Source of the DNA: Tubiluchus corallicola
Taxonomy: Eukaryota; Priapulida; Priapulimorpha; Priapulimorphida; Tubiluchidae
Reading direction: 5' to 3'
Length of the DNA stretch: 64,000 nt
Assembly: GCA_030141605.1 (NCBI GenBank)
Contig: JAQGDQ010000023.1
Coordinates: forward strand, 434,001-498,000
Shown here piece after piece: positions 473 through 53,015 of this stretch (positions are counted from its first letter, which is position 1; each line of letters opens with the position of its first letter). The notes beneath the pieces are model-generated. The model worked only from the letters and a program-made list of their open reading frames with translations, was not told the origin of the DNA and made no database searches. Position numbers and translations under genes: made by a program.

Positions 473-3400
473 TCACATCATAAAAAAGTGTTTAGCAAAT
501 AACCTGATATGACCAGTCGAGAACAAATAAAATAAAATCACGTCAAATTGTATTCTCTTTAAATTCATGCTTTGGTTCCTTGCTTTTTTTAAAATTATCA
601 AAGTTGCCAAAAAGTGCTCCTTAGACAGAAAGTAAAAGAACTTATACTGCTGCATTCAAGCAGAGATCAAGGCTAGCAGTTTTGGCTTCTACAGTTTGAA
701 ACTTACTGGATGTTCAGTATTCTGTTCCTCACTGAATTCAGTGGCATCTTCCTTTATTTGAAGTTTAACAGCTCGTTTGCATGAAAATGATATCAAGCAC
801 CAATCAGTCTGTTAAGAAACAAAATAAACATAATTAGATGGACTTGTCTTAAATTAATTTTAAAATTGTTTGATGGCAGTTCAACTGTCAGTATTAAGAA
901 TTATAATTACCTATGTGAGTTTGGACTAAGTGATCTGAACTTTACAAAATCTCAAAATTTCACATATTAGCTGTTTCACACAATAAAATTAAATAAGCCA
1001 GAATTGTCATCCAACTTTGGTATTACTAAAAAAATTTACTTGTTTATAAATCTATAAAACAGTTGTTGTATGTTATTCGATCATTAAATGCACTAGGTGC
1101 TAGGGTTGCCACCAAACTGGATTTCACCATGAGTATCTTGAAATTCAGACACAGATCCGTAATTCGATTAGACTCTTGAAAAGTTCTGAAACCTCTGGAT
1201 TTCGACCAATGCATTGCAATTTAAGTAAAAAATACCTAAATACAGCTTTAACGCTATTGAAACTACATAAAGTTAATTGCTAAAGCCAGCAGAATCTCTG
1301 TTAAGATACTAAATTAAGTTTAATCTGATGAAAGCTTCATCTTTTCACCTATTTATATTTTTTGCCAATTTTTGCCGCAGCAGCAAGTGTAATACAAGTA
1401 GGTTCACTTTGCTTGAGTCAAATTGTGAACGCATAATTTACATGTACCAATAACTGAAATTGGAAGTGGTGCTGATTGAAGACAATGGCAATACCTAGAT
1501 TTTCCTGGATTACTGCTGTTTTTATGTCTTAAAGGCAGATTTCTTTTACAATTCTCTCTGCTCAAAGTCTGTAATGGACGTAATGAGTACATGATGATGA
1601 TGAATAAGAGAAAAGACACGGAGAGGAGATTTAGCTTTGATCGTGTAATATAAAGTTCCTAATAATTCGATCGCTACGAATTATATACAAAAAAATCTCA
1701 TAAAATGCAAGAAATCTATTAAGACTGAGAAGGAACTCCAGATATGCTCTGTGTTCCTTGTACTTTTGTAAGTTTAATTTACACTTTTAAGGTTTTTGTT
1801 AGAGTCTAAAGTCAAGAAATTTGTATTACTATGTAAATTAAATTTCTCAATTTTTGTTTCTGAAAAAGGCCTCCTAATTCGTCTGAAATACAGGAAATAC
1901 AGCACTCCCCCAGACAGACCCTCTACTGCTGCTGAACTCCTGAGTTTGGATGAACTCAAATGATGAAGCGGCAACCCTACAGCATAACAGTGATTGTAAA
2001 TAGCACTTTGTCATTGAAAACAGTGCCATAGCAGCTGCATTAGCTAACTACCAAAGGAAGGCAGTAAAGAAATACAATGATGATACCTACTCTAAGATGC
2101 ACAAACAAAAAATATTGATAATTGCCAGAAGTGTTAACCAGAAACCAAAAATCTTGATATGTAAACTTTTTTGAACAATGTTCAAGATGAGACAAAAATG
2201 TAAATTAAAGCTTTTAATAAAGTTCTCATCACAGTCAGTGTGTGAAATTTCGGTAAACTTTATAATGTACCTCATTGGCATTATCATCGTCATTCAGCTG
2301 TTCGCGGGCCTGTAGCACCAGTTGCTTTTGATCCACTTGACTGTTCCAGTAAGAAGAACGAAACGAGATTGAACATGCAATGATAGCCATGTTTTGATAT
2401 AGGACTGCTTCGACGGAAGGGATCTTTCGATTAACGGTAACAAATTTCGTCGCGTCTGTTTCCGGAAATAGATTAATTCCTGCACAACGCATTTTCTGTA
2501 AAGTTAAAAATAGGCACAATAATTTAAAGTAATTAATTCTTCAAATATAATCGGTCACAGCAATCATCACAATCATCTTACAGATGCATTATCACATTTC
2601 AAACTTTAGACTGAAACTAAATTTTGCTGAACTACTCTAATGCCAATAGATAGACTTTTGACTGGCAAGTCAGACAAGTACAATAATAGTAAGTAGCTTA
2701 GTAAAAATCTAACTGGAGATGCGTAGCTTACTACAAAATCTTACAATTTTCTGTTACATTGTTTATCAGTAACATTATAATGTGCCTTTAAGTACTTCTG
2801 TGACTGTTCTGTGTGCTTGAATGCTTGAATTATAGTGTGCTTATATTTTTATTGCAGTCACTTTTATTGTAAACCTGTATTACTGAGCTGCTGATGACAA
2901 TAACTGTTAATTGTTGTGCTCCACAAATAAATTGTCTTAATTTTGCCAAATGTAGCTAAAGAAACAATGCTACATTCTAGCTCTCATCAATCAATATGAC
3001 AAACAATATAAAACACTCGACTCCCTTAAACGACTTTAGGCAGGGCTTTTAGATTGCAGACTGCAGTCACAGTAGCTAAGGGGACTGGGACATTACCAAT
3101 CAAAGGTGAAAAATTGCTTACCAGTAGCTACCTCTTCCCTTTTAGAGTATAATCTCAAAACTTGATCCCTAATTTAGGATATTATTCATTAATAGTGGTC
3201 AAAAGATTGTTTTAGTTAATTTTTGTGTATTAGTTAATTGTTTTAGTTAATTAATGTATTAATTAAATTTTTATTGCCACTTTTTGTTCAATTGGTATAT
3301 GTATCACGAACACAATAATTGCAAGCAAGATATAAAAAATATACAAAAACTGATCTAAACAGAATGATCTAGACTTGAACTAGGGAATTAAGGAGAAGCC

Positions 3401-5414
3401 ATGTGCTAATCAAACCATTAATATAAAAAGTAAGCATATACATATAACAAAAGGAACAAACCATGATTAACTGAAATGGCATCATCCACTCATTTACAAA
3501 ACTTCTTAACTGCGGGCAGGTTTCACTAGTTGGCTCAGTGAGACGCACCAGGTTTTGCTATAATAGAATGGTATACTCTAACCATGTTAGTCATTCATCA
3601 TCAGACCTGCCAACTCTCACACATTAGGCATGTGTCACATGCATTTTAAGTTTTTCACATGTGTGAGCACATCAAATTTCAGTTCTCAACTTATTCTGCA
3701 ACTTCACACGCAAGTTTGCAAATCATCTGACTTAAATGGTTTCCTTTGCCACCAGTACCAAGCATAACATAATCAGTAGTACTAGTAGTGTTCATGAGAC
3801 TCACAATATATATTACAATTATTGAAACTTAGGCACATTTGGGTGCCATTGAGCCTTTTCATGTGTACAAAAGAAATTATATTTATATATAAAGCATGGG
3901 TGAATTCCAATAACAGCATAAGAAAGCTCACTGGTACCTAAAAATTACATCATTTTTATTTTTTTGTATAGTACATATAGAATAGTAAAAGTAGATATAC
4001 TATAGTAAAAGTACATGTAGTACAAGAAAAATAAAACTAAAAATCACCAAGATGCAAATTATAGAGAGGGTGATACAGCAATTTTTGCATAATTTAGCAC
4101 AATGACACGTATAATTTTTACAATGATGGTTCTATACAATAATTGTTCATATTGGGGCATTTGTGGACAAACGTATCTTTATCATGAACTAGTTGCAATG
4201 TAAACAGTGCCTAATGCATTCAAAGATGATTAAAAAATGCAGACAATAACATTTCCTCTGATATTTTGTTTATTCAGTTAAGTGCAAAAGGATAAAAACA
4301 TTAAACATCAATCTGACATTACACTTGCATACTATTATAAATTTTGTTTTGAGAATAATGATGCGTGTGTAAGAAAATTCACTAACAGAAACCCTGTGCA
4401 CATGTAGAGCATACCTTTATTTCAAATACTACTTCCACATAAGGTGCTTTTATGCTATAGATGGCGACACCAGCACCACTGTGCTTTAACCACCAAGAAC
4501 AAAATGGCATGGTTATGTATTTGTTCTGCAGCAATGCAAATGTTCCAAAAACGGTTGTCTTGAAAGCGACGGTACCACTCTCTATTGCAAAAAAGATGGA
4601 GATTATAATCTCTTGATCATAAAGAATGATTAAGCAACGCTGTTCATGTGCACTTCGTGGTCACCAACTTTGATGAACTATTACAGATCGTTAAAATCCA
4701 CAACCGTAAAAGAAGTTTGTCTTGACATCAACTGGCAAGTCTGTTATGGCTTAGTACTAGTGTAAACAACTGGGTTGTTTTTCTACATAATGAAATGGAT
4801 TGGTTATATGAGAGAGTTCTCTTGAGATATGTCATCTTTAAGATGAAAAACATAATGCCTTTATAGTCTCAATGATGCATTATTATTTCAGAAAGTTCAG
4901 GGAGAGTTGGGTGCTGGGCAATGCCATCACAGGGCTGTTCTTGAAAATTAAAAAAGGCTGCATCTATTTCCACTCAATAGGAAAATACCACAAAATATCA
5001 CAAATTAAGTCTAGTTCTCCAGACATAGGTACCTCCCTTATAATCAAGTACAACAAAAGATAATCTAAACAAAAACACACTTGTTTTCTTACCTTCATTA
5101 TAGGTTACATCATTTATGTTATCATGTCTCCAATGTTTAAATTCATGGCTCCAATGAGCTACTAATGGCTGATCCCAAATTAAGGCGTTATCTGGGACTC
5201 TGTAAGGAATGATGCATATTAGTCACTCACATTATTCACGCAAAATTCGCTGAATAGAAATGTGTGTTAATTTTACTTATAAGTAATAGTAGTAATAGTA
5301 GTAGAAATAGTAGTAGTAGTAGTAGCAGCAGCAGCAGCAGTAGTAGAAGTAGTAGCAGCAATTATTGCAATTGTAGCAGTCATCATCTATATACTATAAT
5401 AAAACTACATACAA

Positions 5415-5482
<68 letters not shown>

Positions 5483-5861
5483 TCTCTCTCATATGCCATA
5501 TTATCGTCTAGTAAAGTTTGCAATAAACAAAGTCACGGTTGAAATGAATATCATATTCATGTGTCGGATAATCCTAAGGATCAATATACATTGTTACATA
5601 TAATGACACAAACTGGCAACTAACTAACAAAGCCACAAGTTTATTAACCTTTAAATCAGCATAAGTTGGAATGCATGAAATATAACACACACCTGAAAGT
5701 AACATTTAATGGTTGAAGACCAGTTTGCAAAGAAACATTGTGCGACTTCTTTGTTTCTTCTCCAGCTGCTGAACTGGGACGGTCACCTCCTAGTGCTCCT
5801 GTGGGTCCACCTTTCTGTTGTTTGCCAAGTTCAACAAAACTCAGTCTTTGTACCTGCTCAA
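473..5861 (-). CDS. DNAI7: DNAI7 C-terminal exon block (CASC1 domain)
   Basis: Seven exons downstream of the LTR insertion. Exon 5693-5861 ends in [10 protein letters not shown]. Exon 5093-5199 gives [20 protein letters not shown], the family's W-rich strand. Exon 4415-4581 gives the [18 protein letters not shown] and MPFCSW motifs. Exon 3462-3557 ends [12 protein letters not shown]. Exon 2271-2495 starts [20 protein letters not shown], matching human RRAGINIF and MKYVTV. Exon 707-808 starts [20 protein letters not shown]. The last exon, 473-619, starts at residue E after a pyrimidine-rich acceptor. Its final 29 residues (LKRIQFD... to the TGA at 473-475) align without gaps to the human C-terminus (LERVNNS...), so the protein ends at the normal place. 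The last exon has weaker similarity than the others. Confidence 0.9.
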
Positions 5862-8800
5862 CTTTGCAAAAAGTGAGAACCATCTAATGACATGCACAAG
5901 ATTCACATTACATCATTAACTGTATCACTGGTAACTGAGCTCAACAATAAATTCACTAGATCACATCAGGTGACCACAACAGTTTTCTAATTTAGTTGTG
6001 TACTTGTAAAAAGAGAAGCTTGTCTTTTATATGTGTCACACTTTTCGCTTGGCTAGAGCAATATGACATGCTACTGTAACATTTGAACATAATGTGCCCA
6101 TATTAGGCATTAAGTAATTATCGTTACCTGAGTAAAACAATTAAATCCACATCGTTACTGCAATGAATCAGTCTAATTTAGCTGACAAATAACATAGTAA
6201 CATATGAATATTGTAATACTTCTTGCGCTCACGTGACGTCCTGCATACAAGGCGAGGTCTCCTCCAGTACTTGGGTAGGACCGGTCCTTCCTCACGCACG
6301 TTGTGGTAATGCAGCAGAATTCGGTTTACACAGCTTTCCCTCCAACAGGCCGGACACGTAGTAGAGTCTCTGGAGATCGGATAATGAGAAGATCATCTCC
6401 TCCGAGTTCCCACACAGAACGGAAGCGATTTAGATCATCGAACGTGAAGTCAAAGGTGACAATATCTTTATCCAACGAGGAGGTGATTAGGCTATGTAAC
6501 GAATGCCTAATTTAACAAATGTCTCTCAGCAGTTGCGTAACTGACGAGGTTTCACCAACAAAAGAGGAACAGCGTTCACCAATGAATAAAAAGAACATAG
6601 TAATGAACAAACCATCCATTTTCTTGTTCAATCATCGTAAAAGAAACCATGATATAGTTATATCAGACCATTTTTCAACACGGCCATTCTACTCTCCCCG
6701 CCACGTAGGCCAATATGTCTAATATCCAGCCCTCGAAAGCTAGCCGACCAATCAGAAACGAGTTCTGGGTGAAGTGACCTCAGTAGTACAGCGACGAAGC
6801 TTTCACATTTGTTCAAACACGGGCATAATATTATCATGGAAAAAATTGTTGCTAAACGTATTTTCGCTTGAAAAATACAAGTCATGTTGAAACGAAACGA
6901 ATTTCATCTTCTTCTGCCCAATTACATATTTAAGGTAGCTTAACAGAAAAAGGCTTCATTTAATGATAACTTCATCGAAAATAATGCTACTCTTGACTAA
7001 AGATGGCAGCACAAGATTGGAACATAAAAATCAATACATCAATATTATCAATCATTAGGTAAACAATTCGTGATACCGTTAAGAAAAATATTTAAAGTGA
7101 AAAATAATTAGTTGCAGTAATCTGCTGGATGGGGGACCATCACAGAGCCTTCCCCTAAAGAATATTAAATATTTCAAGATCATGATTACGAAACGTAACA
7201 TTTTTCACTGCCAAGATACGATAACGTCATACATATGCAATGACAAACATGAATAGAAGTAACGACTTTGTAGCTCACTGAGTTATTACATATTTTTCAA
7301 CTCAGACAAAACAAAGATAAAAAGAAGCAAATTGATCATTACATCATACACCACAAATGTATCATCAAACAAATATATGATATATAACACCAAAAAAAAA
7401 CTTGTTTAAGCACTGAAAAAGTACTACAACTTGTTGAGCATTTCATACTCTGACGCTTTATATTTATTTCCGGCTTAAGGCATCAGCAACAAGGTTTTGA
7501 GCGCCAGCAATATGCTCAATTGTAAAGCAATATTCTGAAAGAATGAGTGCCCAGTAACACATTGTTATTCTTAAGCATTTTTCTGAGCGCAAGCAAACTT
7601 CTTTGATCAGTGCGCAATGTAAACTGGCGGCCTTCTAAATAGTAATTTAACTTCTGCATGCAAAATACAACACTCAGAAGTTCACATTCAACTACAGAAT
7701 ATCTGACTTCGGTGGGTGTAAGCCTACGACTGACATATGTGATAGGCACTTCTCCCAAGCCATTCATACGATCTTGTGTGAGTACACCACCAATGCCCAC
7801 AAAGCTGGCATCTGTAGTTAGGATAAATGGTTTCGAATAATCAGAGGAATGTAGAACACTGTCAGAAGTTAAAGCATTCTGAAGGGTAAGAAAGCTCTTC
7901 TCACAAGCTTCTGTCCAAGGTACTTGAGTGGGGGAATATTTTTCTGTTAAAGAATACAGAGGTGCAGCGATAGTGCTGAAGTTCTCGATAAAACGTCTGT
8001 AGAAGCCCACCATTCCTAGGAATCTACGTACTTGAGTTTTTGTTTGTGGCCGTGGAAAATCACATATTTGTTGTAGCTTCTTCTGCTGAGGACGTAGGCG
8101 GAAAATCCGTAAACATTTCCGGATACTTGTTAAAAACGAAGTTCTGTGCGTTGTTGCTCTGATAGATCGTCTGGTAAAGTGACATCATTTACTGACTGTG
8201 TGGCAATGGCCGTTGGCAAAAAAGCATAATCTGGGAGACCTCCAGGTTCTACTATTCCTTTGCCGAGGTTTATTATTGCCAAATCATACATGTCATCTTC
8301 CTCAACATCTTCATCAACGCCATATGCTAGAACTTCACTCAAGTTTGTTCCATCATTGTCCAAGCTCATTGCTAAGGATCAGGGACTCCTCTCTGTACAC
8401 ATATTGCTTAAGCTTATTGATATGAACAATTCTAGTGTCCTTCCGTCTACCCTTCTTGCCAAAACAAACTTTATAAGTCCAATCCGATACTTTGTCTGTT
8501 ATTTGATATGGGCCTCTCCATCCTGGTTGCATCTTTTTGCCTTTCCTCATCCTCTGAACCATCACTTTATCGCCAACCTCGAAACTTCTTTCTTTTGACA
8601 CCCGGTCGTACCAGCGTTTCTGGGATAATTTGGCTTCCTGAAGCGATTTATGAGCGTCTTCTGTCGATGTCTCTAATGCATTAATAACTCGTGCAACATA
8701 CTCATCGACATCTTCAAGACTTGGCGGTTTGGAACAACCCCATCGCTCTTTAAGCATGGTCAGCGGACCACGTACTGGGTAGCCAAAGACAAGTTCATTT

Positions 8801-11800
8801 GGGCTGTACCCTGTGGAATCCTGTGGAACTTCACGGTATGAGAAAAGCACATAATCAATTGCGAGATCCCAGGGAAGAGACGAGAAATCTTGTGTTAGGC
8901 GTAAAATAGACTTCTTTAGCGTGTCATTATATTTCTCGACGAGTCCATTCGTTGAAGGTGAGTATGGACTAGTGAAAATACCTTTGACACCGAGCTGATC
9001 CTCCAGCTCTTTGGTCAAGTTTGAAGTGAACTGGGTGCCACAGTCCGTTAATATTTGGCGAGGGATGCCGTATCTACAACAGAATTTCAACAGTGCATTT
9101 AACACGGTGACAGTCTGTATATCTACTAGCGGATATGCGTCCGGATAACGTGTTGCATGGTCCACTATTACTAAAGCCCAACGATTACCAGAAGGTGTAC
9201 GATCAAGCGGCCCAATTAAGTCCATCCCTATGGTACGAAATGCCGTGTCTACAATAGGTAACGGTTTCAAAGGGGCTCTGTCTGCACTGCGTGAACGCGC
9301 TGTTTTCTGACACGTCAGACAGGAACGACAATATTCCCTTACGGAACGTTTAAGACGAGGCCATATATATTCTTGAAGAATTCTCCGAGTTGTCTTGTTT
9401 ATGCCCAAGTGTCCGGCTAATTTACTTCCGTGCGCAAGTTGTAAAACTTCCTTGCGGCGAAATTTGGGTAGTACAAGCAGCTCCCTAGATGCTTGGTGCC
9501 GTTTTCCTTTAGATAAATAGAATAACGCACCTCCGCGCAAAAAGTACCCTTTGCCTAATTTATATGCCTCTTCTTCTGTGCACGCGTTATCAATAATATT
9601 TCGTATAGTGACATCCACTTTTTGCTCTTCGCTGATCTGTTCAATTGTGACGTCAAGAAGTTGTTTCTGATCTTCAGCAGGCGAGTCCTTAACCGCTAAT
9701 CCATCGTTTGATGCTGACGAATCAAATACTTGCTGTTGTAACAGCGTGTCCTGCTTGACTTGAGCTTCTAGCTTGTCAGCCTGCGAGCGAGTTATTGCAT
9801 AAATTGACTCCACATCTGTCGCTGATTGAGGCTTTTGTTTCGGTGGTGATTTACTTGCAGCATTCTTCTTTGGTTTAACGCTGTATTTACCCACTTCTTT
9901 ATTAAATTTTGAAGCTTTTTCAGCATTCTCCGGGAATGGCTTTAACGCTGACTCGTAATTATTTCCAAGTAAAAAGTCAACGGGTAAATTATCGCTTACG
10001 CTTACAGTCAGAATACCAGAGAAGCCAGGCCCAATAATTTCAACCTTCGCTAATTTACTTTGCCTCATATCACCGCACGCGCATACGAACTTGTGTCGGA
10101 GTTCATTTAAATACTGATTAGCGCGAACGAATTTAGCATGTAACATGCTTACACCAGCTCCAGTGTCTCTTTGACCTTTTACCACGTAACCGTTAATTTT
10201 TGCTGTAAAACCAACGGGCTGTTTTCGGCCAGGTACATGATGCCAATCATCATCATTATTTGGCATCTTTATTTCCGGTGTGCTAAACAATTGTTTGCCA
10301 GGTTTACCAAATACAGCAGCATTAGCAGGTCGCATGACGTGTTCAGTTCCCAAACGCGATCGACATTCGCTGCGCCTATGACCAGGCTTTCCACAAGCGT
10401 AACAATGCATTTTGGTTGCAAGATTCTGGCTCATATTTGTATTGCTCGCGCCTTCACCTTGCGACGTGGCAACATTGGGTTTACCAGTCTTTTTAAATGA
10501 ATAAACATTTTTCCCAGGAAGGGAAGTGATTTGTCTCGCTGCGACAAATTGATCTGCCCGTTGGGCCATCTTCTCAATTGTCCTGATGCTATCCGTCTTT
10601 AACCAAGTGGCCAAATCGTGTGGCATCAAACTAAGCGCTTGTTCAATTACTACTGCTTCATTAACAGTCTCAAAAGTCTCGGCTTGTATGGCTTCAAGAT
10701 AGTCGCGCCAACTATTATCCAAGCGTCTGAAAAGCTGGCGATAACTTTCATTCTTAAGCTTTATTGTACCGCGGAATCTCTCCAGGTAAACGTCATTGCT
10801 TAGAATATACGCGCCAAGCAAAGCTTTGCGAACGTATGTGTAGTTCCGCATTTCAGACTCGGGAATCTGCTGAAACGCGTCTGCTGCTCTGCCAGACAAA
10901 GATGGGCCAATACACGCCGCGAAGTCTGATCTATCAATCTTGTTTGCAGCAGCACAAGCTTGAAACCAATCAAGAAACTTTTGTATATCGTCCTTGGTTT
11001 CATCAAAGGGACGTATTTTCATGAGCTTTAATTTGTCAACGGTAGAGTCCGCTTGACGACTATAGAAAGGACTGGCCTGTGACATCATTGGCGACTGACT
11101 GACTGGACTGGCAGCGGTCAATTCAAGTTTACGTAACTCCATCTCGGCCATAATGCGCTCATGCTCTAATTGTAACTTTTTTGCTTCAGTTTCTGCTTCT
11201 AACCGTCGAATTTGCAGAAATGTTTGAGCAGCAGCTTCGTTAACTGTAGAAAGAGACTCTAAAGTAACGTCTGTCATTCTCTCTGTAGTTCTCCTACGAC
11301 GAGGAGTCGGCGTTGGCGACTGCTCTGTAACTATCATATGTTTTGGTTTCACACTGACATCAGGGGTTTTTGCTGCTTCTGTCGGGTCAGAGGCTTCCGC
11401 GCATAGTAAAGGCTGATTCATACCCGCGTCGAAAGTGTCAAGTTCTGCACCCTCATCACGTTTTCCCTCTTCAGGGCAACCCGCGGCCTTGAGAATGGCA
11501 GTAATTAAAACAGCCCGTCTCGAAGTAGGGTCGACTAAGAGATGTAGTTCTGCTACAATATTCTGCAACTGCTCTTTATTAAGAGTCATTAACTCTGAAA
11601 GTTTGTATCTAACATCAGACATTTTTATACTTTGCAAGATGACTACAGACTGCCAAGTAGGTACACAAAGTAAGGAGTAAATCTATGTTTAACCACTCTC
11701 ACTCACTCTCACTTTACACATCAGCGTTAGCTACTATCAACCGACTTTTTGGCAGGGCAAAAATAATTTATGCGAAATGTTAAAAGCAAGTTTGGAAAAA

Positions 11801-17364: not shown

Positions 17365-17441
<77 letters not shown>

Positions 17442-20400: not shown

Positions 20401-23056
20401 CAATCCCGCAAGCCTACAGCACCTGGTATTCCTAGGTGATCACCCATCCAAGTACTAACGAGGCTCTACGTTGCTTAACTTTGGTGATCAGACAAGAACC
20501 GGTGTTTTCAACGTGATATGGCCGTAGACAGACAGATAGACACACACATACCGACAAACATCACTAAATGCGGGTAATCACTTGTTAGAGAAGATAATCA
20601 GAATAAGCTATGCTGAGCTACCAACATTTCATCGCCCCATTGCCCACTAATTATGTGTCAAGAGATGAGACACTGTTTCCTAACAAGAGCTCTTAGACAA
20701 AAAAAATACTTCCCAAAAAGTTGCTCAAGCTTGTAATATCCTGACACTAACTGAAAGCAATCAGCTAATATGCATATCAAGGTCCAAAATTATCCTAGCT
20801 ACAACAACCAAACAACCAGGTGGTCATCCTGTGTGCTCATGTAAAGTCACTAACAGGAAACACTACAACTACACATATTTAGCCAAAATAACTATTTTAT
20901 TGAGAACAGTAAAGAAGTTTCATAGCAACAGACTCATCAGCTTAAGTTGGTAACGTTACAGCGGACTACAACAGGACGCCCAGATTGGGTGGAAGCTAAT
21001 AGTTAAGCAAAAATGCCTATGTCACAAGTAGGATGTAAACAATGCGACAAAGGGGAGTGTTGGCACAGTTGAAGTGCATAGTCACAGCCATAGTGCTCTT
21101 ACACTCAGGTGTAAATTTAAGCAGGGTCAGGTTAGTAAATAGGTCGGTGAATAAAAGAAAGAAAAGTGTTTCTTGTTTCTAAATTTATTTTGTTCATCGT
21201 CCTTAACAGTTCTGTAATGCAATTCAAGTACAGCTTACAGTTGCTTCCAAACTGCACAGTGCGTCAACTGAATGATATCTTAAGTAGTAAATATCTTAAG
21301 CAGTAAATAACATTATATTATACAACACATGAATGGATTACAGCAGGACATATTACTACCTTAAGGACCTTTACGCTTTCGTGTAGAACTGAATCAATGT
21401 GGTCATGAGTGGAATCCTCTCTCCACTGATTTATGTAGGTGTTAATTTCTCCAGGTATGGTTGGATCCGGTAATCCGCAACAATCCATATATCGCTTCCA
21501 CTGAAATATGTAAACACAGATAAAAGATCTCATAAGATTTAACTGACCCAAATTGACTGCTTTGCTTCGGTTTAGTTTACTTTATATTTCTTTACAATAA
21601 TTAATATTTGCTTTTTATTGAAATTGAAACTTGATTTCACAGTTATATTGCAATAACACAGCAATACCTCAGGCACTCATCATGTTTTAATAAATTATAC
21701 TACCGCTTCATCTTTCCGGCGTTTGTCGTTGAAATCATTTAGTTTTGAATTATAGTTATCAAGAAATGTTTCCAATTCAGCATTCTGAACCAACCAGATC
21801 TCATGCTCCTGAAATGTGTAAAAAAAGTATAACAATGCTTTCAACCTAAGCGTAATTTTTCTCTTTTCATACTGCAATATCACACATCTTATCTTTGCCT
21901 TCGCACAAATTCCAAACAATAATTTATAATGGATTAGTAATTAGATTAAATTACAGATTAACAATTGACGTAGTTTTTAAAAAGGAAATTACGTATAAAA
22001 GGAAACTGGAAAACAACAAAGACTTTTTTTAATTTTATTGGTTTCAAACTGCAATTTGTATTCACATTTTAAATATGTATATAGCTCAAGTGATACTTTA
22101 CACTTATGAGTGATAACATGCATATGTAAACCTGTAAAGTATGTAAAATGAAGTACAAATATAAAATTTGTTACTAGTATTCTGCATATCACATTTGCTT
22201 AGTAATTCAATTACTTACAATAGCTTCTTGTTTCCGTCTTTCTTCTGCTTCGACTCGTTCTCGCTCTTGTCGTTCCAACTCCTCCTGTTCTGCTCGAAGC
22301 CTGGCTTCTTCTATACAAGAATTATAAGTGACATTGCATATAGTATATCATAGACAAAGTAGGCACACGACAAGATTATAAAATTTGAAAATCCTTACAG
22401 TTAATGACACAGTATAATAATTTTGCCATTTTTACAAATGATGGTCATAAAATGTTGAAAAATATTCATGTTGAGTGTGTATGTGTATGTGTGTGTGTGT
22501 GCAACTAAAAAAAATGAATATATGAAAAAAATGAAGAACTAGTCAATGAATGCATGAGTGAATAACTCAGGGCAAGACTGAATAAAGCGAAGAAAGAAGG
22601 AAAAAAGAAAGATGAAAAACAAAGAATTTAAGGAAGGAAAGGAAGAAAGAAAGAACGAACAAAAGAAAGAAAGAAAAACAAATAAATTAGAAGCTAATTT
22701 TTAAACAAACAACTTAGCAAATTAGAAACAAATGAAAATCAAACCATTAATTGCAAATAATACCTTCTTCCTGTGCTCTTCTTGCAGCTTCCAATTTTTT
22801 CTTTTTGAGTCTAGCAGCTTTAGAGAGCTTTTTCTTTTTCTTTGGCTAAACAGAGTAATAAAAGACACAATGTAACAAAACTTTTAAATCAAATTACTCA
22901 AAGATGTGATGAAACACGATATGCGTATAATATTCATAGAGATAAATTAATACAGCTGATCATGCAGACAGGTAAAGTAGGTAAGATATATCCCTAATAC
23001 AGATAAAATTAGGTAGATGAAATTACCTATTACCTAACAACCTTGATTTGTGCCAT
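473..23056 (-). CDS. DNAI7: DNAI7 (CASC1/Las1), axonemal dynein intermediate-chain family protein, complete multi-exon gene
   Basis: The DNAI7/CASC1 family acts in motile cilia; its Chlamydomonas relative IC97 belongs to inner-arm dynein I1. I see 17 coding exons, given 5' to 3' on the minus strand: 22764-22845, 22219-22310, 21704-21808, 21360-21500, 19921-20064, 19430-19533, 16908-17074, 16506-16669, 15510-15795, 14860-14997, 5693-5861, 5093-5199, 4415-4581, 3462-3557, 2271-2495, 707-808, 473-619. Each is bounded by AG and GT, every phase matches the next exon, and the sum is 2436 bp, an exact multiple of three. That gives 811 residues plus the stop, somewhat longer than human (about 715). 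The start exon is uncertain. My preferred start is ATG 23054-23056, with A at -3 and G at +4, encoding MAQIK before an in-phase but weak donor. The alternative is ATG 23482-23484, encoding MPCP before a strong GTAAGT donor. The intron between 14860 and 5861 contains an LTR retrotransposon. Confidence 0.93.
1102..1976. repeat. Possible MITE with TAGGGTTGCC inverted ends
   Basis: TAGGGTTGCC at about 1103 is matched by its complement GGCAACCCTA at about 1970, spaced about 870 bp. Family A repeat copy 1 lies inside. I see no target-site duplication, so this may be coincidence or an old element. Confidence 0.25.
1440..1612 (+). repeat. Dispersed repeat family A, copy 1 (SINE-like, unclassified)
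   Basis: About 170 bp shared with 48005-48160 in the same orientation. Shared blocks include AGTGGTGCTGA, GGCA-TA, TTACTGCTGT, TGTCTTRARGGC and GTAATGG-CGTA, with an ATGATGATGA tail ending in AAAGAAAA. The simple-repeat tail suggests a SINE or another retroposed unit. It lies in the DNAI7 intron 809-2270. Confidence 0.5.
3600..3725 (+). repeat. Possible dispersed repeat fragment rich in CTCACAC/CATGTG motifs
   Basis: A short stretch beginning CAGACCTGCCAACTCTCAC, with repeated TCACA/CATGTGTGA units of both polarities. Its look is that of a non-autonomous DNA transposon end, but I cannot assign it. It is in the DNAI7 intron 3558-4414. Confidence 0.25.
4946..5091 (+). repeat. Intronic repeat family B, copy 1
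   Basis: Shares an ordered series of blocks with 13672-13836 and partly 14288-14345: AAAGGCTG-ATCTA, CACAAATTAAGT, AGTTCTC-AGACA, ATCAAGTA-AACAAAA, ATAAT-TAAACA and TGTTTTCT. It abuts the donor of exon 5093-5199. Confidence 0.5.
5283..5490 (+). repeat. Compound microsatellite (TAG/CAG)n then (CT)n
   Basis: Imperfect AGT/AGC triplets at 5283-5362 are followed by an almost pure CT tract at 5416-5490. It is in the DNAI7 intron 5200-5692. The translated Ser-rich and Leu/Ser ORF across it is not a gene. Confidence 0.95.
6075..7144 (-). repeat. 3' LTR of the Gmr1-like element
   Basis: The copy at offset +6178 has the same length with no indel. I count five substitutions: one in the GGGTAGGACC stretch near 6277, one near 6735, and three at 7084-7091. 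That is about 0.5% divergence, so the insertion is recent. The minus-strand ends are TGT...ACA. An ATTAAA on the minus strand (6959-6964) could act as a poly(A) signal. Small plus-strand ORFs inside the LTR occur identically in both copies and are not genes. Confidence 0.95.
7148..7156 (-). promoter_or_regulatory. Polypurine tract
   Basis: The minus strand reads AGGGGAAGG, then CTC, then the TG that opens the 3' LTR. Position and composition fit the plus-strand primer of an LTR element. Confidence 0.75.
7464..8369 (-). pseudogene. Truncated RT/RNase H of the LTR element (catalytic core deleted)
   Basis: The second pol part starts in overlap with the integrase ORF at 8369 and runs open to 8130. 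After a frameshift the RT N-terminal motif [11 protein letters not shown] appears. It is followed almost at once by the RT thumb/connection motif [20 protein letters not shown] (about 8060-7995). The fingers and palm, including the YxDD site, are therefore missing, normally 200 or more residues. RNase H follows with [15 protein letters not shown] and TDQRS. A second frameshift near 7560 separates this from the family's C-terminal [17 protein letters not shown], which ends at a TAA at 7464-7466. The copy cannot make its own RT. Confidence 0.88.
8353..11637 (-). CDS. Gag-protease-integrase polyprotein of the LTR element
   Basis: An intact 1094-residue ORF. Residues about 6-60 form a SAP-like N-terminus. 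A coiled, E/K-rich stretch follows, then a capsid region at about 200-370. A CCHC zinc knuckle ([16 protein letters not shown]2CX4HX4C) lies near residue 410. An aspartic protease with DTGA lies near 491, with FLLGNNY later. The integrase HHCC zinc domain is at about 735-775 (CRSCLTC). The integrase core has D in MDLIGPL (about 805), D in TDCGTQF (about 863) and E in NGLVEKYN, a DX35E spacing. A C-terminal module carries GWRGPYQI. Either M1 or M6 could start it. The stop lies within about 17 nt of overlap with the next frame (8353-8369), consistent with -1 frameshifting into RT. No RT lies between protease and integrase, so the order is genuinely Gmr1-like. Confidence 0.93.
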   Translation of the reverse strand: MQSIKMSDVRYKLSELMTLNKEQLQNIVAELHLLVDPTSRRAVLITAILKAAGCPEEGKRDEGAELDTFDAGMNQPLLCAEASDPTEAAKTPDVSVKPKHMIVTEQSPTPTPRRRRTTERMTDVTLESLSTVNEAAAQTFLQIRRLEAETEAKKLQLEHERIMAEMELRKLELTAASPVSQSPMMSQASPFYSRQADSTVDKLKLMKIRPFDETKDDIQKFLDWFQACAAANKIDRSDFAACIGPSLSGRAADAFQQIPESEMRNYTYVRKALLGAYILSNDVYLERFRGTIKLKNESYRQLFRRLDNSWRDYLEAIQAETFETVNEAVVIEQALSLMPHDLATWLKTDSIRTIEKMAQRADQFVAARQITSLPGKNVYSFKKTGKPNVATSQGEGASNTNMSQNLATKMHCYACGKPGHRRSECRSRLGTEHVMRPANAAVFGKPGKQLFSTPEIKMPNNDDDWHHVPGRKQPVGFTAKINGYVVKGQRDTGAGVSMLHAKFVRANQYLNELRHKFVCACGDMRQSKLAKVEIIGPGFSGILTVSVSDNLPVDFLLGNNYESALKPFPENAEKASKFNKEVGKYSVKPKKNAASKSPPKQKPQSATDVESIYAITRSQADKLEAQVKQDTLLQQQVFDSSASNDGLAVKDSPAEDQKQLLDVTIEQISEEQKVDVTIRNIIDNACTEEEAYKLGKGYFLRGGALFYLSKGKRHQASRELLVLPKFRRKEVLQLAHGSKLAGHLGINKTTRRILQEYIWPRLKRSVREYCRSCLTCQKTARSRSADRAPLKPLPIVDTAFRTIGMDLIGPLDRTPSGNRWALVIVDHATRYPDAYPLVDIQTVTVLNALLKFCCRYGIPRQILTDCGTQFTSNLTKELEDQLGVKGIFTSPYSPSTNGLVEKYNDTLKKSILRLTQDFSSLPWDLAIDYVLFSYREVPQDSTGYSPNELVFGYPVRGPLTMLKERWGCSKPPSLEDVDEYVARVINALETSTEDAHKSLQEAKLSQKRWYDRVSKERSFEVGDKVMVQRMRKGKKMQPGWRGPYQITDKVSDWTYKVCFGKKGRRKDTRIVHINKLKQYVYREESLILSNELGQ
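12239..12251 (-). promoter_or_regulatory. Primer-binding site, tRNA-Leu type
   Basis: One base inside the 5' LTR the minus strand reads TGGTGTCAGAAGT, 13 bases complementary to the CCA-bearing 3' end of a eukaryotic tRNA-Leu (ACTTCTGACACCA). Confidence 0.85.
12253..13322 (-). repeat. 5' LTR of the Gmr1-like element
   Basis: The upstream (minus-strand) LTR, 1070 bp, pairs with 6075-7144. It should contain the element's promoter. It ends in CA immediately before the primer site at 12251. The 3' flank carries the target duplication GCTAC at 13323-13327. Confidence 0.95.
13672..13836 (+). repeat. Intronic repeat family B, copy 2
   Basis: Diverged copy of 4946-5091 lying just beyond the LTR element. 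A further partial copy (AAAAGATAATCCAAACATAA...TGTGTTTTCTGACTC) is at 14288-14345. Confidence 0.5.
14860..22845 (-). CDS. DNAI7: DNAI7 N-terminal exon block (Casc1_N-type region)
   Basis: These ten exons encode, in order: a lysine run ([17 protein letters not shown]) passing into an E/R/Q-rich coiled coil (22764-22845, 22219-22310); a segment with [20 protein letters not shown] (21704-21808); the family hallmark [18 protein letters not shown] (21360-21500); helices around [15 protein letters not shown] (19921-20064); the [12 protein letters not shown] strand (19430-19533); and [12 protein letters not shown] (16908-17074), which matches human VLYTEYDHYSH. Two linker exons follow. The one at 15510-15795 is a basic Ser/Thr/Lys-rich insertion of about 90 residues that I cannot match to vertebrate DNAI7 and that is probably disordered. 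The exon 14860-14997 returns to the conserved [22 protein letters not shown] core. A 5S-like sequence lies in the intron 20065-21359. Confidence 0.92.
17333..17438 (+). repeat. (TA)n microsatellite
   Basis: Two TA tracts, 17333-17353 and 17367-17438, interrupted by GAAATGAATAAGTGC. In the DNAI7 intron 17075-19429, which otherwise shows no coding signal. Confidence 0.95.
20410..20529 (-). rRNA. 5S rRNA gene copy or pseudogene, full length, in a DNAI7 intron
   Basis: The minus strand starts GTCTACGGCC and ends GCTGTAGGCTT, exactly 120 nt. It contains the box A-like AGTTAAGCAACG and the box C-like TTAGTACTTGGATGGGTGA of a metazoan 5S gene. Several positions look like C-to-T or G-to-A changes from the usual sequence (for example GTCTGATCACCAAAG and TGATCACCTAGGAATACCAGG). 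No T-run terminator follows directly. It is probably a decayed, dispersed copy; a 5S-derived SINE head is an alternative. CT/CA-type simple repeats lie just outside its 5' end. Confidence 0.85.
22473..22680 (+). repeat. GT-rich and (GAAA)n-like low-complexity tract
   Basis: TATGTGTGTGTG at 22484-22500 is followed by A/G-rich GAAGAAAGAAAG-type sequence at 22580-22680. It is in the DNAI7 intron 22311-22763. Confidence 0.7.
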
Positions 23057-24010
23057 ACTGCTGAGTGTTGCTTAATTTGCTTCTAATTAATTGTGAAATT
23101 GATTTTTTATATTGCATGGCATGTTAATTACAGTGCCAGTTATTTTCTTCACAACTTTTGGTTTACATTAGTGACGGCAAATGTCACTGCAACAGCTGCA
23201 CAGTTAAGCTGGTCAGTGTTTAATCTGTTTAGCTTTCCTTTAAAATATTTTAGGTACAGATTAGTATATAGGCATAATAGATGAAGCACTAAAATGCAAT
23301 TCTAGTTAACACATTATTTTTAATTGCCACCAACATTTTTGTTGTATGAATGTTTAATTATTGCTGCATTTGACAGCTTCTCATTCAGTTTTCTATAGCC
23401 ATGGCTTTTTTCTCTGTGCTGATTATTTATTAATTATTTCAACTATTGAAAACTAGAGAACAAGGCACTTACAGGACAAGGCATAGCTTAGATCATTGCC
23501 TTTACAACATAAATAGCATGGAAGGATGTACAAAAACAGTTGTAAGAATTACTGGATTAAAGAAAATGAAATTAAACAATTTCAAACCTAAACCACTTCG
23601 ACTTTACATTAGATATGTTGCTAGTTCTTTTTTACATTACAACTACAAGACTAATTTAAAGTGCAGTAACACAACTCATACCGCAACCTTCTTACCCCCA
23701 TAGTGCACCAATTACGTAACTATTTCGCTACAGAATGTTCATCAAGTTCATAAAGATGGCGAAGCTGAATATATCAAGTCATGCTACACTCATACACTGA
23801 TACGGCGCAATTTATTTATATAGGACTAATGTTATAAAATGTGCTGCTGTTAACAGCATTGATACAAAAAGAATCTTTCCAAAGTGTAGTCTGAAAAATA
23901 CAACTGGCGAGTCGTACATAATTTTATACGATTGTAACGATTTGTAAATCCGCTTAAACTAAATATACTATATAGAAACAGTTTTCACCGCACAGTGCTG
24001 GAGAAATTAA

Positions 24011-24060
24011 AGTACCTGTAACCTGTTGCCAATGACGCTAATTTGCCGTCACGTGATTGC
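24011..24060. promoter_or_regulatory. Candidate DNAI7 / ETFRF1-side promoter core
   Basis: A 45-bp cluster upstream of DNAI7 holds two RFX-type half-sites in direct orientation (GTAACC 24018-24023, GTTGCC 24025-24030). They overlap a CCAAT box (24029-24033) and a TGACG, and are followed by an E-box in GTCACGTGA (24048-24056). RFX factors control ciliary genes in animals, which suits DNAI7. The half-sites are not in the canonical inverted X-box arrangement. Placement between divergent genes makes this the best promoter candidate, but no transcription start is visible. Confidence 0.35.
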
Positions 24061-24631
24061 AAGAAAGCATTTTGTAAGCTGTACAAATAAAACAAACTGA
24101 CACATAAAAACTTTGCAAAAATTTAAAAATTATAGCAGGCAATCAAGTTATGATTGAAAGCTTATTGACATTAACAAATAAAGTTTAAATAAAATCCAGT
24201 GTTTAAGCAAACTTTATGTTTGCGTCCGTCAGAGGGTGCAACAAGAGTCTTGTTTGCACGCAGCTTGCACGTGCTGGAGGTTTTTGTATGATAAACATTT
24301 AAACATTTTATTCATAATAATTGATGATCATCAAAACTTAACTAATTCTTGCTGCAATACGTAGTAAAATAAAAGTTTAGTGGTGTGTCACTGTAACTTA
24401 CTTTTAATAATCTCTGAAAACTCGTAAGTAATTTAAGCTCCGGGATGTAATGGAGGCTAATCCATTTATTTTAATCATATTCTTGACGAGGATCAATTTA
24501 AATTTTTTGCTAGATTTTCCAACCTTGGTAACTTACTGGATAATAATGCTTTCAACTTACAGGTATTTGATGATGACAGTGAAAATGACTTTAATTTCGA
24601 CAATAACTAATAATGGTTGTTGGGATGGGCT

Positions 24632-25440
24632 AGCACAAGTAGGGTGCGTCGCACATGGGCTGCCCAAGTAGGACACTAGAGACAGGTCCTGAAATGAATC
24701 GTTAATCGTACTGGCAGCGTCAGTTGTCATTGTTTATTTAATAATAATAATTGAAAACGTCAATACACGTTGAATAATTTTTTATACATCTGATAATATT
24801 GTATTTTTAATATTGATAAAGTAAACAAGGAAGAGTGGAGAGGTTTATAAGCTATTTATGCTTAACCTCTATCCTTTGACAGTAATGGTAATAAAGTCTT
24901 AAAGGATCTTATTCTGAGCTAGTAGAACGGCCAATATTATATTTGGCTTTGCTATTAATCTTTTTGAAGTAAAATAAGCTCGCCTTTTAGGTAATACCAA
25001 CATTTGTTTAAGTCTATCATTTTTTTATTTTGTCTCGCTTCACAGATAGGTGATACGTTTCACTGCCTCTTAGTCTTGGGCAAATAATTGTTTCTACTAG
25101 GTAAATGGGCTAGCAAGCTATGTGCCCTACATAGTTTCTTGCTTTAAAGCATTAGATATTTAGTTTAGTGTTATGATTATATTAATGGAGCTAATAATAA
25201 TGATATATTGTGAAAAATGCATTTGTAAATTGTCAAGGATTATCCATCATTATTATAAAGTTACTTTTTTTCTAAAATAACTTTAGTTTTATGTTTCATT
25301 ATGTTGTAATTATCGATTCTCGACAGAAATCGCCAGTGTCCTACTTGGGCTGTCCATGTACAACACTGCTTTTCTGCAAATTTAGCACATGTATGCGTTT
25401 TAGCGGACGTGTCCTACTTCGGCTAGTGGCGTACTCTGCG
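24632..25440. mobile_element. Possible MITE with CCCAAGTAGGACAC inverted repeats
   Basis: GCCCAAGTAGGACACT at 24663-24678 is repeated in inverted orientation at about 25335-25350. A second pair, AGC-CAAGTAGG, occurs at about 24633 and, inverted, at about 25410. The inner 650 bp shows no credible ORF. This looks like a non-autonomous DNA transposon or a foldback element. I find no clear target duplication. Confidence 0.4.
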
Positions 25441-25507
25441 CCCTACGATGGTTATATTGATCCTGACAGACAACGTACAATAATATTACAAAGCGCAAAA
25501 GTAATTA

Positions 25508-27950
25508 TTGATTAGTGTTAAAAGGGTGATGAAAGAACTAAAAGGATTACCCAATAATCCTTTTACTTTAATACATCTTTATGTTCGTAGTCTCAAAGCA
25601 AACTTCGACCATTTTTTTGCTTACCCGGAAATTATTAAGTTTAAGTTTCCTGTCATCGCACTTACCGAACCTTTGTTAAAAAATGAAAAAGGTCATATGT
25701 TTATACTGTCCAACTATAGGTTTTTGTGTCTGAATAGAAAAAATAAAAAAAGGGGGTGGAGTGGCACTGTTTATTTATGATTATATTTCGTGCACCCAAT
25801 GTAATGATCTTTGTGTTATTGGTGATGATATTGATGCTTTATTCATTGAAATTAATTGTAACAAGGATAAAAGTAAGGTACTTGGATGTATATATCGACC
25901 ACTAGGTAACAGCCTTCTCTAAGATTTACAGATAAATTGTCCAATATTTTGACTGATGTTAATAATAGTGGTAAAATTATTTTTCTTTTAGGAGATTTCA
26001 GTATAAATTTACTATCCCGTTCTGAACACGATCATATCAAATATTATTTGAATACTATGCTATGTCAATATGTGTTCCCAAATATAATTCGCCCTACTAA
26101 GAGTTACAGATTACACTGCCACACTTATTGATAACGTATTTACCAATGCAATTGAGATTGACTTTTAATCTGGTTTTCTTCTAACAGGTATATCTGATCA
26201 CCTACCGGTGTGTTTATTAACTAATTTGTGTTTTCCATTACTCACTCATGTTTCTGGCAATAAAATTGTGTATCATAATGACATTAAAATGCTCTAATAC
26301 ATGATTTAAGTAATGTTAGTTGGTATGATGTGTTAAGTAATAATGATGCTAATATACATGTATGTATGTACATGTTTCGCCTGAAATTTAGCAGTATTTA
26401 CTCACGACATATTAAAGAACAAAAAATTGTCAATGATTCAAATATCCCCATAAACCTTGGATTCCTTTTGGTTTATTAAAGTCAGTCATACAAAATACCG
26501 TTTATATAAATTTGTTATGAAAACTCGTGTTACATTAGAAACTACTAACTATAAAAAATGTCATAACAAATTAAATAATTTATTAAAACATACAAAAAAT
26601 AATTACTATAGAAAGAAATTTGAATTATATGCCAAAAATACTAAAAAAATTGGAATACTGTAAAGGAATTGATGAATAAATCTAATATTCTACACTCATC
26701 AGGCTTAAAATCCAAAATAAATTTGTAATGAATAATCAAATGATTTCTGAAAATTTTAATCATTATTTTATTAATATTGGGCCAAAACTTGCTAACCAAA
26801 TTGAATGTACTGATGTTAAATGTAATCAATTTCTTTATGGGAATTACACAGATTCCTTTTATTTTAAACCTGTTACTCATGATGATATAGTTAGCTCAAG
26901 TAAAAATTTAAATCCAAATAAAAGTTCTAATATATATAGATTTTCTCCAAAAATAATTGTTGATGTTATCCAATATATCACAACACCGCAAAGTTACATA
27001 ATCAGTCTATCTCTTGGTACAGGCATAGTTCCAGATAAAATGAAATAGCCTTTAGTCACGCCTTTATTTAAATCTGGTGATTCAACTTGTATGTATAATT
27101 AGTGACCATTTTGACTCTTGCCAATTTTTCTAAACTTCTGGAGAGATGTGTGTACAATCAACTAAACAATTATTTGAAAAAGCATAGTATAATTAACACC
27201 AAACAATTTGGATTTCGTAAAGTATGCTCTAGCGAACTTGCACTTGTATCGCTATGTAAAGAGCTTGTGAATACTATTGAGGAAAATTCTGTCACTGCTG
27301 GTGTGTTCCATGGCTTGTCAAAAGCCTGTGACTTAATATCTTGATGAGTAAACTCTATTTTTGAGGAGGAATTGTCTGTGGCTGGTTTCAGAGTTACTTA
27401 TCTACTCGTTTACAATCTGTCACCAGTAACAATACTATTTCTAGTCCCATAGAAATTGCCCATGGAGTTCCACAAGGTTCAATTCTCAGAATGCTACTGT
27501 TTTTTCCAAATTTGCCAAATAGCATGTTTAACCAAATTAAGTTTCTTGGGGCGATAATTAATGATAATTTGAGCTGGAATATGAATATGATTAGCACAAA
27601 AATTGCAAAAAACACTGGAACAATTTCCCGTGTTAGTCAAAATCTATGTGCTGCTTTGTTGGTTATACTATATATCCTTATTTTTCCTTATTCATTTCCT
27701 TATATATTTCCTTATTTAAATTATTCAGTTATTTTTTGGTCTAACTTACCCCACCGGGTAAGGATGTTTAACTTTACCCCACTAGTATAATGAATCTAAT
27801 CGGGATTTTATATAATTTGCCCAAACATGCAGAAGTTAATAACTCCCACTTTTTAAACTGTAAAATTTTAAAATTTGATGATTTAGTATATTATTTTTAT
27901 AGTATAATATATATATTATATTAGTAAGGTTTCAATTTTTATGTTTAAAA
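25508..27950 (+). pseudogene. Decayed non-LTR retrotransposon (CR1/L2-like), APE endonuclease plus RT fragments
   Basis: Broken frames carry LINE ORF2 features in order. Endonuclease signatures are FTLIHLYVRSLKANFD, FPVIALTE, LGCIYRP and FLLGDFSINLL (25550-26030). A linker follows, then the RT approach: NFNHYFINIGPKLANQI (26750), NPNKSSNIYRFSPKII (26915), LANFSKLLERCVYNQLNNYL (27110), KQFGFRK (27210), FHGLSKACDLIS (27305) and GVPQGSILR (27465). The sequence then jumps to the post-catalytic motif IKFLGAIINDNLSWNMN (27535). The FADD block between them is deleted. There are multiple stops. The element lies between DNAI7 and ETFRF1. Confidence 0.85.

Positions 27951-28145: not shown

Positions 28146-28146
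<1 letters not shown>

Positions 28147-28183
<37 letters not shown>
28147..28183 (+). repeat. (TA)n microsatellite
   Basis: Pure TA run at 28150-28182, followed by TG-rich sequence to about 28420. Confidence 0.9.
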
Positions 28184-28185
<2 letters not shown>

Positions 28186-28619
28186 TTAGTACACACTCAC
28201 ATAATTACAATAAAGAGTATGAGTTGTGCATGACAGGATCACTGATTACATTCATTGTGGGTGGCTGTATGAGTAAGTGTTTGTGCATGAAGTTTTGTGT
28301 GTGTGTGTTGTTCATTTGAATGAGTATTTATACAATATGTGTGCATGAGAGAACTGATAATTGATTACATTGTATGTGAGTGTGTGAACAAATGAATGTG
28401 TATTAAGTTGTATGTGTGAGATTGTATGCATACATAATTGATATCTGTCCTGCATGTCTGTGTTTTTTCTTCTTTTAATCTTGAGATTCGGTAATTCTTT
28501 GTTATTGCAGTTCTGAGGATAGCTTAAGTGAAGAGATAACATTTATTAAGCATATAATTTCTGAATAACTATTATAAATGATAAAAATTGGTGAAATCCT
28601 ACTTATTGTTTCATCCTAA

Positions 28620-28830
28620 TGCTAGTGTAGTGAGGCAGCTAAAGAGTTGGCCCAACACTTTTGGGATACTGGTCATTTCATTGACACGAAAAATGTCGTA
28701 ATTCTAGATTACGCTAGATATTTTAGCAAGCTGTATATAAAGGATGGTGTATACATCAGAAAACATGTGTACATCAGAAATCTTTTTAACAATCTGAAGG
28801 ACTTTGAATACTCTCATAATGTTTTTGTGG
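28620..28830 (+). pseudogene. Fragment of a Penelope-like element (C-terminal GIY-YIG region)
   Basis: A frame reading AAKELAQHFWDTGHFIDTKN, VVILDYARYFSKLYIKDGVYIRK and then RNLFNNLKDFEYSHN. It resembles the C-terminal endonuclease segment of Penelope-like elements (H...HxID...VL...R...KE.IYI+). No RT is attached. It is 240 bp upstream of ETFRF1. Confidence 0.5.
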
Positions 28831-29070
28831 TGATTAGTTCAGTTTGTTCCAGCTACCATTGCATGTGCTAATTGGGTTAAACTGGATTAGGCTAATTGCT
28901 GGGAATTAGTTATGATCAAGGAGCATTGGTTTCTTTCTTTTTATAGTTAATTATCGTGGCGATTCTTAAATCAAACTTTTGAAGATTTTTTCGTGTTATT
29001 GTGTTTTTGCAGGTTAAAACTAGGTTTATGCATATCCAACACGGCACATTAAGGTGAAAACAGCACAAAA

Positions 29071-30654
29071 ATGTCGTCACAAATTCATGCTAGTCTTCGT
29101 AGTCGAGTTATCCAGCTTTATAAAAATGTATGTAAAATTTTACCATGCATATTTTAAATAACATTTTCTGCTATGACTACTAGTGTGATGTAAGTGGTAA
29201 CATGAACTTTACAATATGTCATATTTAGGTACTGTGTTAACGTATATAGAAGCATTTATGTTGTGTTCTGTTTGTTTAATGTCTACAGCTCATTAAAATT
29301 GATTGTTGTTGAATAATTGTTAGAAATTAGCATTATGATGTTAAAGCTGCCAGAAAAGCCTGCCTAAAATATTAAAAAAATTCCTTTCTTTGGAAGAAGA
29401 CGATGAGGTTTTTTAAATAAATCTTGATTTATATGGCAAGGAAAGATCCGGAGTGACCAAAGTGACTGTTTGCTCACTGCTTAGTGAATATTAGCAATTA
29501 AAGCTGCGTGAAAGCTAGTCTATGAATAGGTGGCCAACCGTCAGCTTTAATCTTAGATTTCATTCACCATACTGATTTCATCTGGATTGTTGAGGCAGTG
29601 TGCATTCACATTCAAACATGCCTCAACACTTCGGCCAGATACAATGTCAGCTTGCTAATGTTTGATTTTGAAGAAATATCATTGGTGGCCAATAGATTAA
29701 TGCTTTTGCACTGCTAACTGGTTTCTGGCACAAAATATCTGGAAATGCGACAAATGCATGTATCGTCAATATATGCATTTACTTAACGTCATTGCATCTG
29801 CTGTTGCTATTAGAAATAGAATTACAAATTGCAAATAGAATAAGGCTTTTCACAATTTCATCGAGCGCACACCGTTGCTGTAGGTTAAAGATTAAGTGTA
29901 CCACAGCAACGCGTCTTAGCTACAATCGTCACGTGACATGTGTGTAAAGCAAAGCCGTCTCTTGCATCAGTTATGCATCAGTCTCTGTGTAGAATGATTT
30001 ATTAGCAGGATCTTGTTTGGGGAACAAGAAAAATGAACTAGATCATCTTCTAGCTAGCTGTTAAAGCTGTTACTATCACAATAGCATCTGCTGCGAGGCG
30101 TTGTCATGTGTACACAAATGTATTGTCTAGTTCACTTTGACCTTTTCACACTTATCATCATTGGCTGGAAGTGTAAAAAATTTTATTGCTCATTAAACAG
30201 TTGTAATAGATGGCTATTTTAGGAAATTATTTTAAGCCACTGTATAAATGGATTAAAAAGGCAAGGCATGTTTCATGGAGTGACCAGTTTGTTCAAATGG
30301 TCTGATTTTTTCTTGCTGTATTTCTTTCTCTTAAAATTGATTTTACATTCATATTTTCCTGATACCTTATAGTAAAATGGAAAAGATCAGGCAGAACCAT
30401 AAAATAACCTGTTCTTTTCTATTAAAATTTTTGTATAATTTCAGTTACATTATCTCGGACGAGATTATCCGAAAGGTGCCGAATATTTTCACGAACGACT
30501 AAAAGCAGCTTTTACAAAAAACAAAGATGTTAAAGATCCTGAGCAAATCGAGCTGTTGATTATGCGTGGTGAATATGTAGTGAAAGAACTAGAAGCTCTG
30601 TACAAGTTGCGTAAATATCGCGCTATGAAGAAACGGTATTACAGTGATGCATGA
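29071..30654 (+). CDS. ETFRF1: ETFRF1 (LYRM5), LYR-motif regulator of electron-transfer flavoprotein
   Basis: Two coding exons, 29071-29127 and 30445-30654, joined at phase 0 across a 1317-bp intron (AAT|GTATGT, TTTCAG|TTA). The product has 88 residues; human has 90. The first exon ends [10 protein letters not shown], the LYR-type motif. The second begins [15 protein letters not shown] and ends [21 protein letters not shown], nearly identical to vertebrate ETFRF1. In vertebrates this matrix protein binds mitochondrial acyl carrier protein and ETF and lowers ETF activity by promoting FAD release. An upstream acceptor (TTTTTGCAG ending at 29012) suggests a spliced 5' UTR. AATAAA at 31088-31093 is a candidate poly(A) signal. 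It is divergent from DNAI7, as in human. Confidence 0.95.
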
Positions 30655-37800: not shown

Positions 37801-37826
37801 AGAAAAGCGGTAGGTTGAGAAAGACA

Positions 37827-39579: not shown

Positions 39580-39599
39580 GCTTCATGAAAATTGCCTAA

Positions 39600-52807: not shown

Positions 52808-53015
<208 letters not shown>

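Follow-up and report, generated by a model that had tools for sequence, protein, structure and literature searches.

A divergent DNAI7-ETFRF1 gene pair in Tubiluchus corallicola, with a candidate shared promoter between its start codons

Results

The gene pair and its locus

DNAI7 (CASC1/IC97) on the minus strand and ETFRF1 on the plus strand lie head to head in the window (the whole 64,000-nucleotide stretch analysed here), and both are convincing orthologues of the genes whose names they carry. The sequence-only reading had proposed this divergent arrangement, and exon matches, Pfam domains and strand order bear it out. Because orthology, divergent orientation and a non-vertebrate host are all supported, the sensible and best reading is that the pairing is probably older than vertebrates, a reading drawn from one comparison, mammals versus the host. 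On balance we favour a pair whose head-to-head arrangement dates back to the ancestor shared with vertebrates and that may have been held together by a shared regulatory region.

The DNAI7 gene runs leftward from a predicted start at 23701 and is traced to about 690, and the ETFRF1 coding sequence occupies 29071-30654. There are no Ns in the window, so the two genes are not separated by an assembly gap, nor were they brought together by an assembly join. The window corresponds to C1787:732392-796391 (minus strand) in an assembly of 343,548,820 bases and 2344 contigs. The DNAI7-ETFRF1 locus is repeated on C2138 and C2264, where the stretches compared, of 3.1, 6.2 and 1.1 kb, are 100% identical, and we read the three copies as redundant scaffolds. 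The scaffolds C1787, C2264 and C2138 measure 1.05, 1.05 and 1.22 Mb and are identical in all stretches compared around the locus; C2264 exceeds C1787 in length by 14 bases.

The DNAI7 gene

To describe DNAI7 we typed the exon peptides end to end as an approximate sequence of 601 aa. It matches the solved chains 9fqr_Hn (E 2.9e-83) and 8j07_k3 (E 3.6e-83), of about 715 residues, between residues 3 and 668. Two IC97/Casc1 proteins are the sole further PDB matches at E<=0.01 (four sequences in all, every one DNAI7 or IC97/Casc1). The concatenation scores above the Pfam cut-offs for Casc1_N (5.9e-48) and Casc1_C (2.6e-10), and it is the presence of both domains, together with the collinear match to solved DNAI7 chains, that identifies the gene as the DNAI7 orthologue. 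Taken singly in phmmer searches of PDB, the exons match in the correct order on the minus strand, at residues 178-225, 226-274, 91-142, 437-480 and 561-632, with weak matches at residues 473-532 and 636-669. The gene model is as follows.

690..23701, minus: DNAI7 (CASC1/IC97) gene as modelled; the sequence-only reading puts the C-terminal end at 473
23696..23701, minus: predicted exon 1 (Met-Gly), ATGGGG followed by donor gtaaga, phase 0, from the mini-exon scan
22764..22845, minus: exon 2, Lys-rich N-terminus; acceptor AG at 22847-22846
22219..22310, minus: exon 3, by DNAI7 match
21704..21808, minus: exon 4; donor at 21704 or 21701
21360..21500, minus: exon 5, residues about 92-142
19921..20064, minus: exon 6; 3' edge approximate
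19430..19533, minus: exon 7, residues to about 225; approximate edges
16908..17074, minus: exon, residues 226-274; approximate edges
14860..14997, minus: exon, residues about 366-405; weak match, approximate edges
5093..5199, minus: exon, residues from about 437; approximate edges
4412..4591, minus: exon, residues about 473-532; weak match, approximate edges
2271..2495, minus: exon, residues 561-632, Casc1_C; approximate edges
692..808, minus: exon, residues about 636-667; weak match

At the 3' end, the exon at 692..808 has two possible ends, an in-frame stop that follows immediately below 692 or a splice site, GTAAGT, near 707. At the 5' end, exon 2 (22845 downward) begins at a splice acceptor and has no ATG, which requires a further exon upstream. 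In 22860-29050, a scan for mini-exons of 1-15 codons, each with an in-phase ATG and a donor, returned 47 candidates, among which ATGGGG/gtaaga at 23701 has the best donor score and carries favourable bases at positions -3 and +4. Its Met-Gly also fits the length of the alignment, in which exon 2 starts at residue 3. The best candidate for the first coding exon is thus the one predicted at 23701, inside the gap between the two genes. Regarding copy number, none of the 5 candidates from a Casc1_C search of the genome was a match, and Pfam, run over 1-7500 with X in place of stops, did not recognise DNAI7 although exons are present there; as both missed the DNAI7 gene of this locus, they are uninformative.

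The ETFRF1 gene

The ETFRF1 coding sequence joins 29071-29127 to 30445-30654 on the plus strand (88 codons).

29013..29127, plus: first coding exon, ATG at 29071; the acceptor (...tttttgcag) ends at 29012
30445..30654, plus: last coding exon, with the stop; by ETFRF1 match

A hand-typed human ETFRF1 sequence matches in the window at E 4e-31, with 75% identical residues in an alignment of 68 aa, and the peptide clears both Pfam LYR cut-offs. The genome search for the LYR family scored six matches, three of which are the ETFRF1 locus on the three contigs. When four LYR loci were compared with two references only, both hand-typed, ETFRF1 matched one, the locus here (L003), LYRM4 matched L001 and L002, and L006 was matched by neither. 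A LYR domain in a protein nearer ETFRF1 than LYRM4 identifies this gene as the ETFRF1 orthologue.

Among 3631 plus-strand AGs, the acceptor ending at 29012, just before the ATG, belongs to the top 0.9%, which suggests that a non-coding exon lies upstream. This score carries limited weight, because the proven ETFRF1 acceptor at 30444, taken as a control, reaches only the top 38%. Scored against the other plus-strand GTs, the donors at 24382 and 24423 rank within the top 1.4% and 2.4%, and the strongest plus-strand donors of the gap sit in a LINE (27757 and 26207). Both matrices, donor and acceptor, were written by hand.

The interval between the start codons

The gap of about 6 kb described in the sequence-only reading is right as a distance from DNAI7 exon 2 to the ETFRF1 ATG (about 6.2 kb), and shrinks to 5.4 kb when measured from the predicted DNAI7 ATG. 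It does hold transposons, but the picture of an intergenic gap filled with them is probably wrong, since a DNAI7 exon is needed inside it and ETFRF1 probably has one there too. Of the three elements named, the LINE is upheld by a related copy and the inverted-repeat element by its high-copy family, while the Penelope-like fragment found no match in Pfam scans of low sensitivity. The features of the interval are the following.

23601..24620, no strand: candidate shared promoter region; unique in the genome, CpG o/e 0.89
24018..24056, no strand: motif cluster from the motif scan, with two RFX-type half-sites, CCAAT, two TGACG/CGTCA and TCACGTGA
24625..25446, no strand: high-copy repeat with inverted arms at 24648-24682 and 25330-25364, from the genome DNA search
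25505..27790, plus: decayed LINE, endonuclease-like ORF pieces followed by reverse transcriptase (RT); related copy, ORFs by eye

For the high-copy repeat, a genome search that took the whole 6.2 kb as its query listed 1287 candidates at first look, of which 40 were scored. The related LINE copy lies at C1787:710.9-712.8 kb and aligns with the RT part (E 1.7e-32). Besides the three identical scaffolds, the 40 candidates scored out of 277 in the LINE DNA search gave matches of 33 to about 440 bp at 67-94%, and because these scored matches are short or weak, the LINE copy looks old. Its endonuclease part, read by eye from ORFs, was not recognised by Pfam. The Pfam scans of the gap gave no Penelope RT or GIY-YIG match, and in them the confirmed LINE RT itself appeared only below threshold (E 0.057). 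We also considered the CpG-poor RT half of the LINE as a methylation boundary, and dropped the idea; the related LINE copy is CpG-poor there too.

Vertebrate genomes are generally CpG-poor throughout. In the window, CpG o/e forms a mosaic of blocks near 0.4-0.5 and near 0.9, and in 1-kb steps over 296 kb it ranges from 0.18 to 1.62 (median 0.66, 90th percentile 1.04). The consulted portions of two papers state that methylated CpGs are lost through mutation (PMC8857923) and that vertebrate genomes are hypermethylated, with invertebrate methylation concentrated on highly transcribed genes (PMC11292947).

The best candidate for a shared promoter would be the unique, CpG-normal kilobase at about 23.6-24.6 kb. 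The uniqueness test, on 23500-24620, finds no further copy in the genome. CpG o/e in 23601-24620 is 0.89 (24 CpG versus 26.8 expected; limits 0.54-1.25), the limits being wide and the edges of the region having been chosen after the CpG profile was seen. CpG-depleted gene bodies flank it (0.50 and 0.54); the adjoining DNAI7 body has 0.50 (0.42-0.58) and 27851-29070 has 0.48 (limits 0.21-0.75). The neighbouring repeat (0.84) and the 5' part of the LINE (0.70) are also near normal. The cluster at 24018-24056, about 320 bp upstream of the predicted DNAI7 ATG, is the densest of its kind in the window, for motifs picked once the sequence had been seen; 1 of 40 simulated sequences contained an equally large cluster. 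Under strict patterns, the gap contains one AAGATGGCG (23753), one FOXJ1-type site (24821) and two CACGTG (24050 and 24268), and no full X-box, NRF1, ETS, SP1, CRE, TATA or long/strict CCAAT.

Discussion

Comparison with known gene pairs

In human, DNAI7 and ETFRF1 presumably lie head to head with a tiny gap between them, whereas here 5.4 kb containing transposons separate the start codons. We take KRAS to be the next neighbour of the pair in mammals. Searched by tblastn, a hand-typed KRAS sequence gives only an 8-residue match in the window (E 9.5), and nothing reaches E<=1 in the surrounding 296 kb (C1787:600001-896391). The mouse order appears in the part of one source that we used as Bcat1-Lrmp-Casc1-Lyrm5-Kras-Ifltd1 (PMC3990522), and in a human amplicon LRMP, CASC1 and LYRM5 neighbour KRAS, according to an excerpt of another (PMC2717977). 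The host thus resembles the mammalian Pas1/KRAS region in that the same two orthologues, Casc1 (DNAI7) and Lyrm5 (ETFRF1), are adjacent, and differs from it in the lack of a KRAS match within the 296 kb searched.

A head-to-head neighbour pair that is kept is also what characterises ancient metazoan microsyntenic or divergently paired genes. Work by Irimia in 2012 reportedly dealt with ancient metazoan microsyntenic gene pairs. Conserved divergent gene pairs are a recognised class, as far as the sections consulted of three papers go (PMC3815023, PMC5429095, PMC2871058). According to the portion of PMC2871058 used here, bidirectional promoters are defined by divergent genes less than 1000 bp apart, the non-vertebrates studied show no excess of divergent pairs with short gaps, and conserved metazoan divergent pairs tend toward related function. 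Given that tendency, as that portion reports it (PMC2871058), a ciliary-mitochondrial pair would be an exception, not the rule. In the literature, supplementary tables aside, we found no report on deep conservation of the DNAI7-ETFRF1 pair, which may already be within published pair tables.

Explanations for the arrangement

The explanation that we lean towards is that the pair was inherited head to head from an ancestor common to the host and vertebrates, and that a common control region at about 23.6-24.6 kb keeps the two genes together. DNAI7 would be transcribed leftward from a first exon in this region, and an upstream non-coding exon of ETFRF1 would most likely be transcribed rightward from it. 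The LINE and the high-copy repeat would then lie mainly within a long first intron of ETFRF1, leaving the promoter link intact.

An ancestral pair does not require a shared promoter, and we give a lesser but substantial chance to the case in which ETFRF1 starts just upstream of 29.07 kb, near 28.9 kb. The linkage would then persist by inertia, with transposons parting two promoters. The 5.4 kb between the start codons, with a LINE and a repeat in them, agree with such a separate promoter, and our searches for an upstream ETFRF1 exon demonstrated none. It sits less well with the strong acceptor immediately before the ETFRF1 ATG, and the CpG depletion of 27851-29070 looks more like gene body than promoter. 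It is also conceivable that DNAI7 and ETFRF1 were joined independently in the host lineage, which we regard as very improbable. The absence of a KRAS match (E<=1) in the 296 kb leaves no larger block to argue for common descent, but losing a single adjacency such as this one is ordinary, and the same neighbour in the same orientation would be expected by chance about 1 time in 20,000 (an estimate that uses an assumed gene number). Equally improbable, in our view, is an origin of the window from a vertebrate or a very near relative, in which a pair known from mammals would be nothing remarkable; the mosaic CpG content, the genome size of 343.5 Mb and the lack of a KRAS match nearby all speak against it. 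A search for COX1, in which one candidate was scored, found none.

Returning to the shared control region, a stronger form of this explanation, which we consider rather unlikely, is that a compact promoter has driven both genes, one for a ciliary dynein and the other for a mitochondrial LYR protein, in opposite directions since before vertebrates and has kept them paired, despite a first ETFRF1 intron lengthened by transposons; such a promoter might link the motility of cilia to energy metabolism through the electron-transfer flavoprotein. If the pairing spans animal phyla, it implies a testable regulatory constraint on two functionally unlike genes for hundreds of millions of years, and it offers a natural experiment on how head-to-head genes stay paired once transposons have inserted between their coding starts.

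Other features of the window

Two further elements lie in DNAI7 introns. The first is a Gypsy-type LTR retrotransposon on the minus strand, in the same orientation as the gene, with LTRs at 6075-7145 and 12253-13323. The LTRs are 99.5% identical over 1071 bp (5 mismatches), so the element is recent, and its gag region has a Pfam SCAN match (E 3e-8). The other is a full-length 5S rRNA-like sequence at 20411-20529 (98.2 bits), on the strand of the gene, which might be a degenerate copy or a SINE derived from 5S; we take it to resemble lophotrochozoan 5S rRNA. Past the 3' end of DNAI7 and convergent with it, SLC13-type transporter-like ORFs were seen by eye on the minus strand of C1787:796392-816391 (L007-L008).

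On the ETFRF1 side of the window there is a single-exon rhodopsin-family GPCR at 38485-39582, minus strand (7tm_1 E 3.3e-10, Srw E 5.1e-10). A TGF-beta ligand with its propeptide is found at 62945-63880, plus strand (top PDB match GDF5, E 2.9e-17), and perhaps extends from 54996; the ORF at 54996-55499, which has no Pfam match, may by eye be its first exon. Two tandem arrays complete the set, one of 55 bp at 37826-38136 (5.7 copies, 93% matches) and one of the ATA triplet at 52813-53015 (68 copies, 96% matches).
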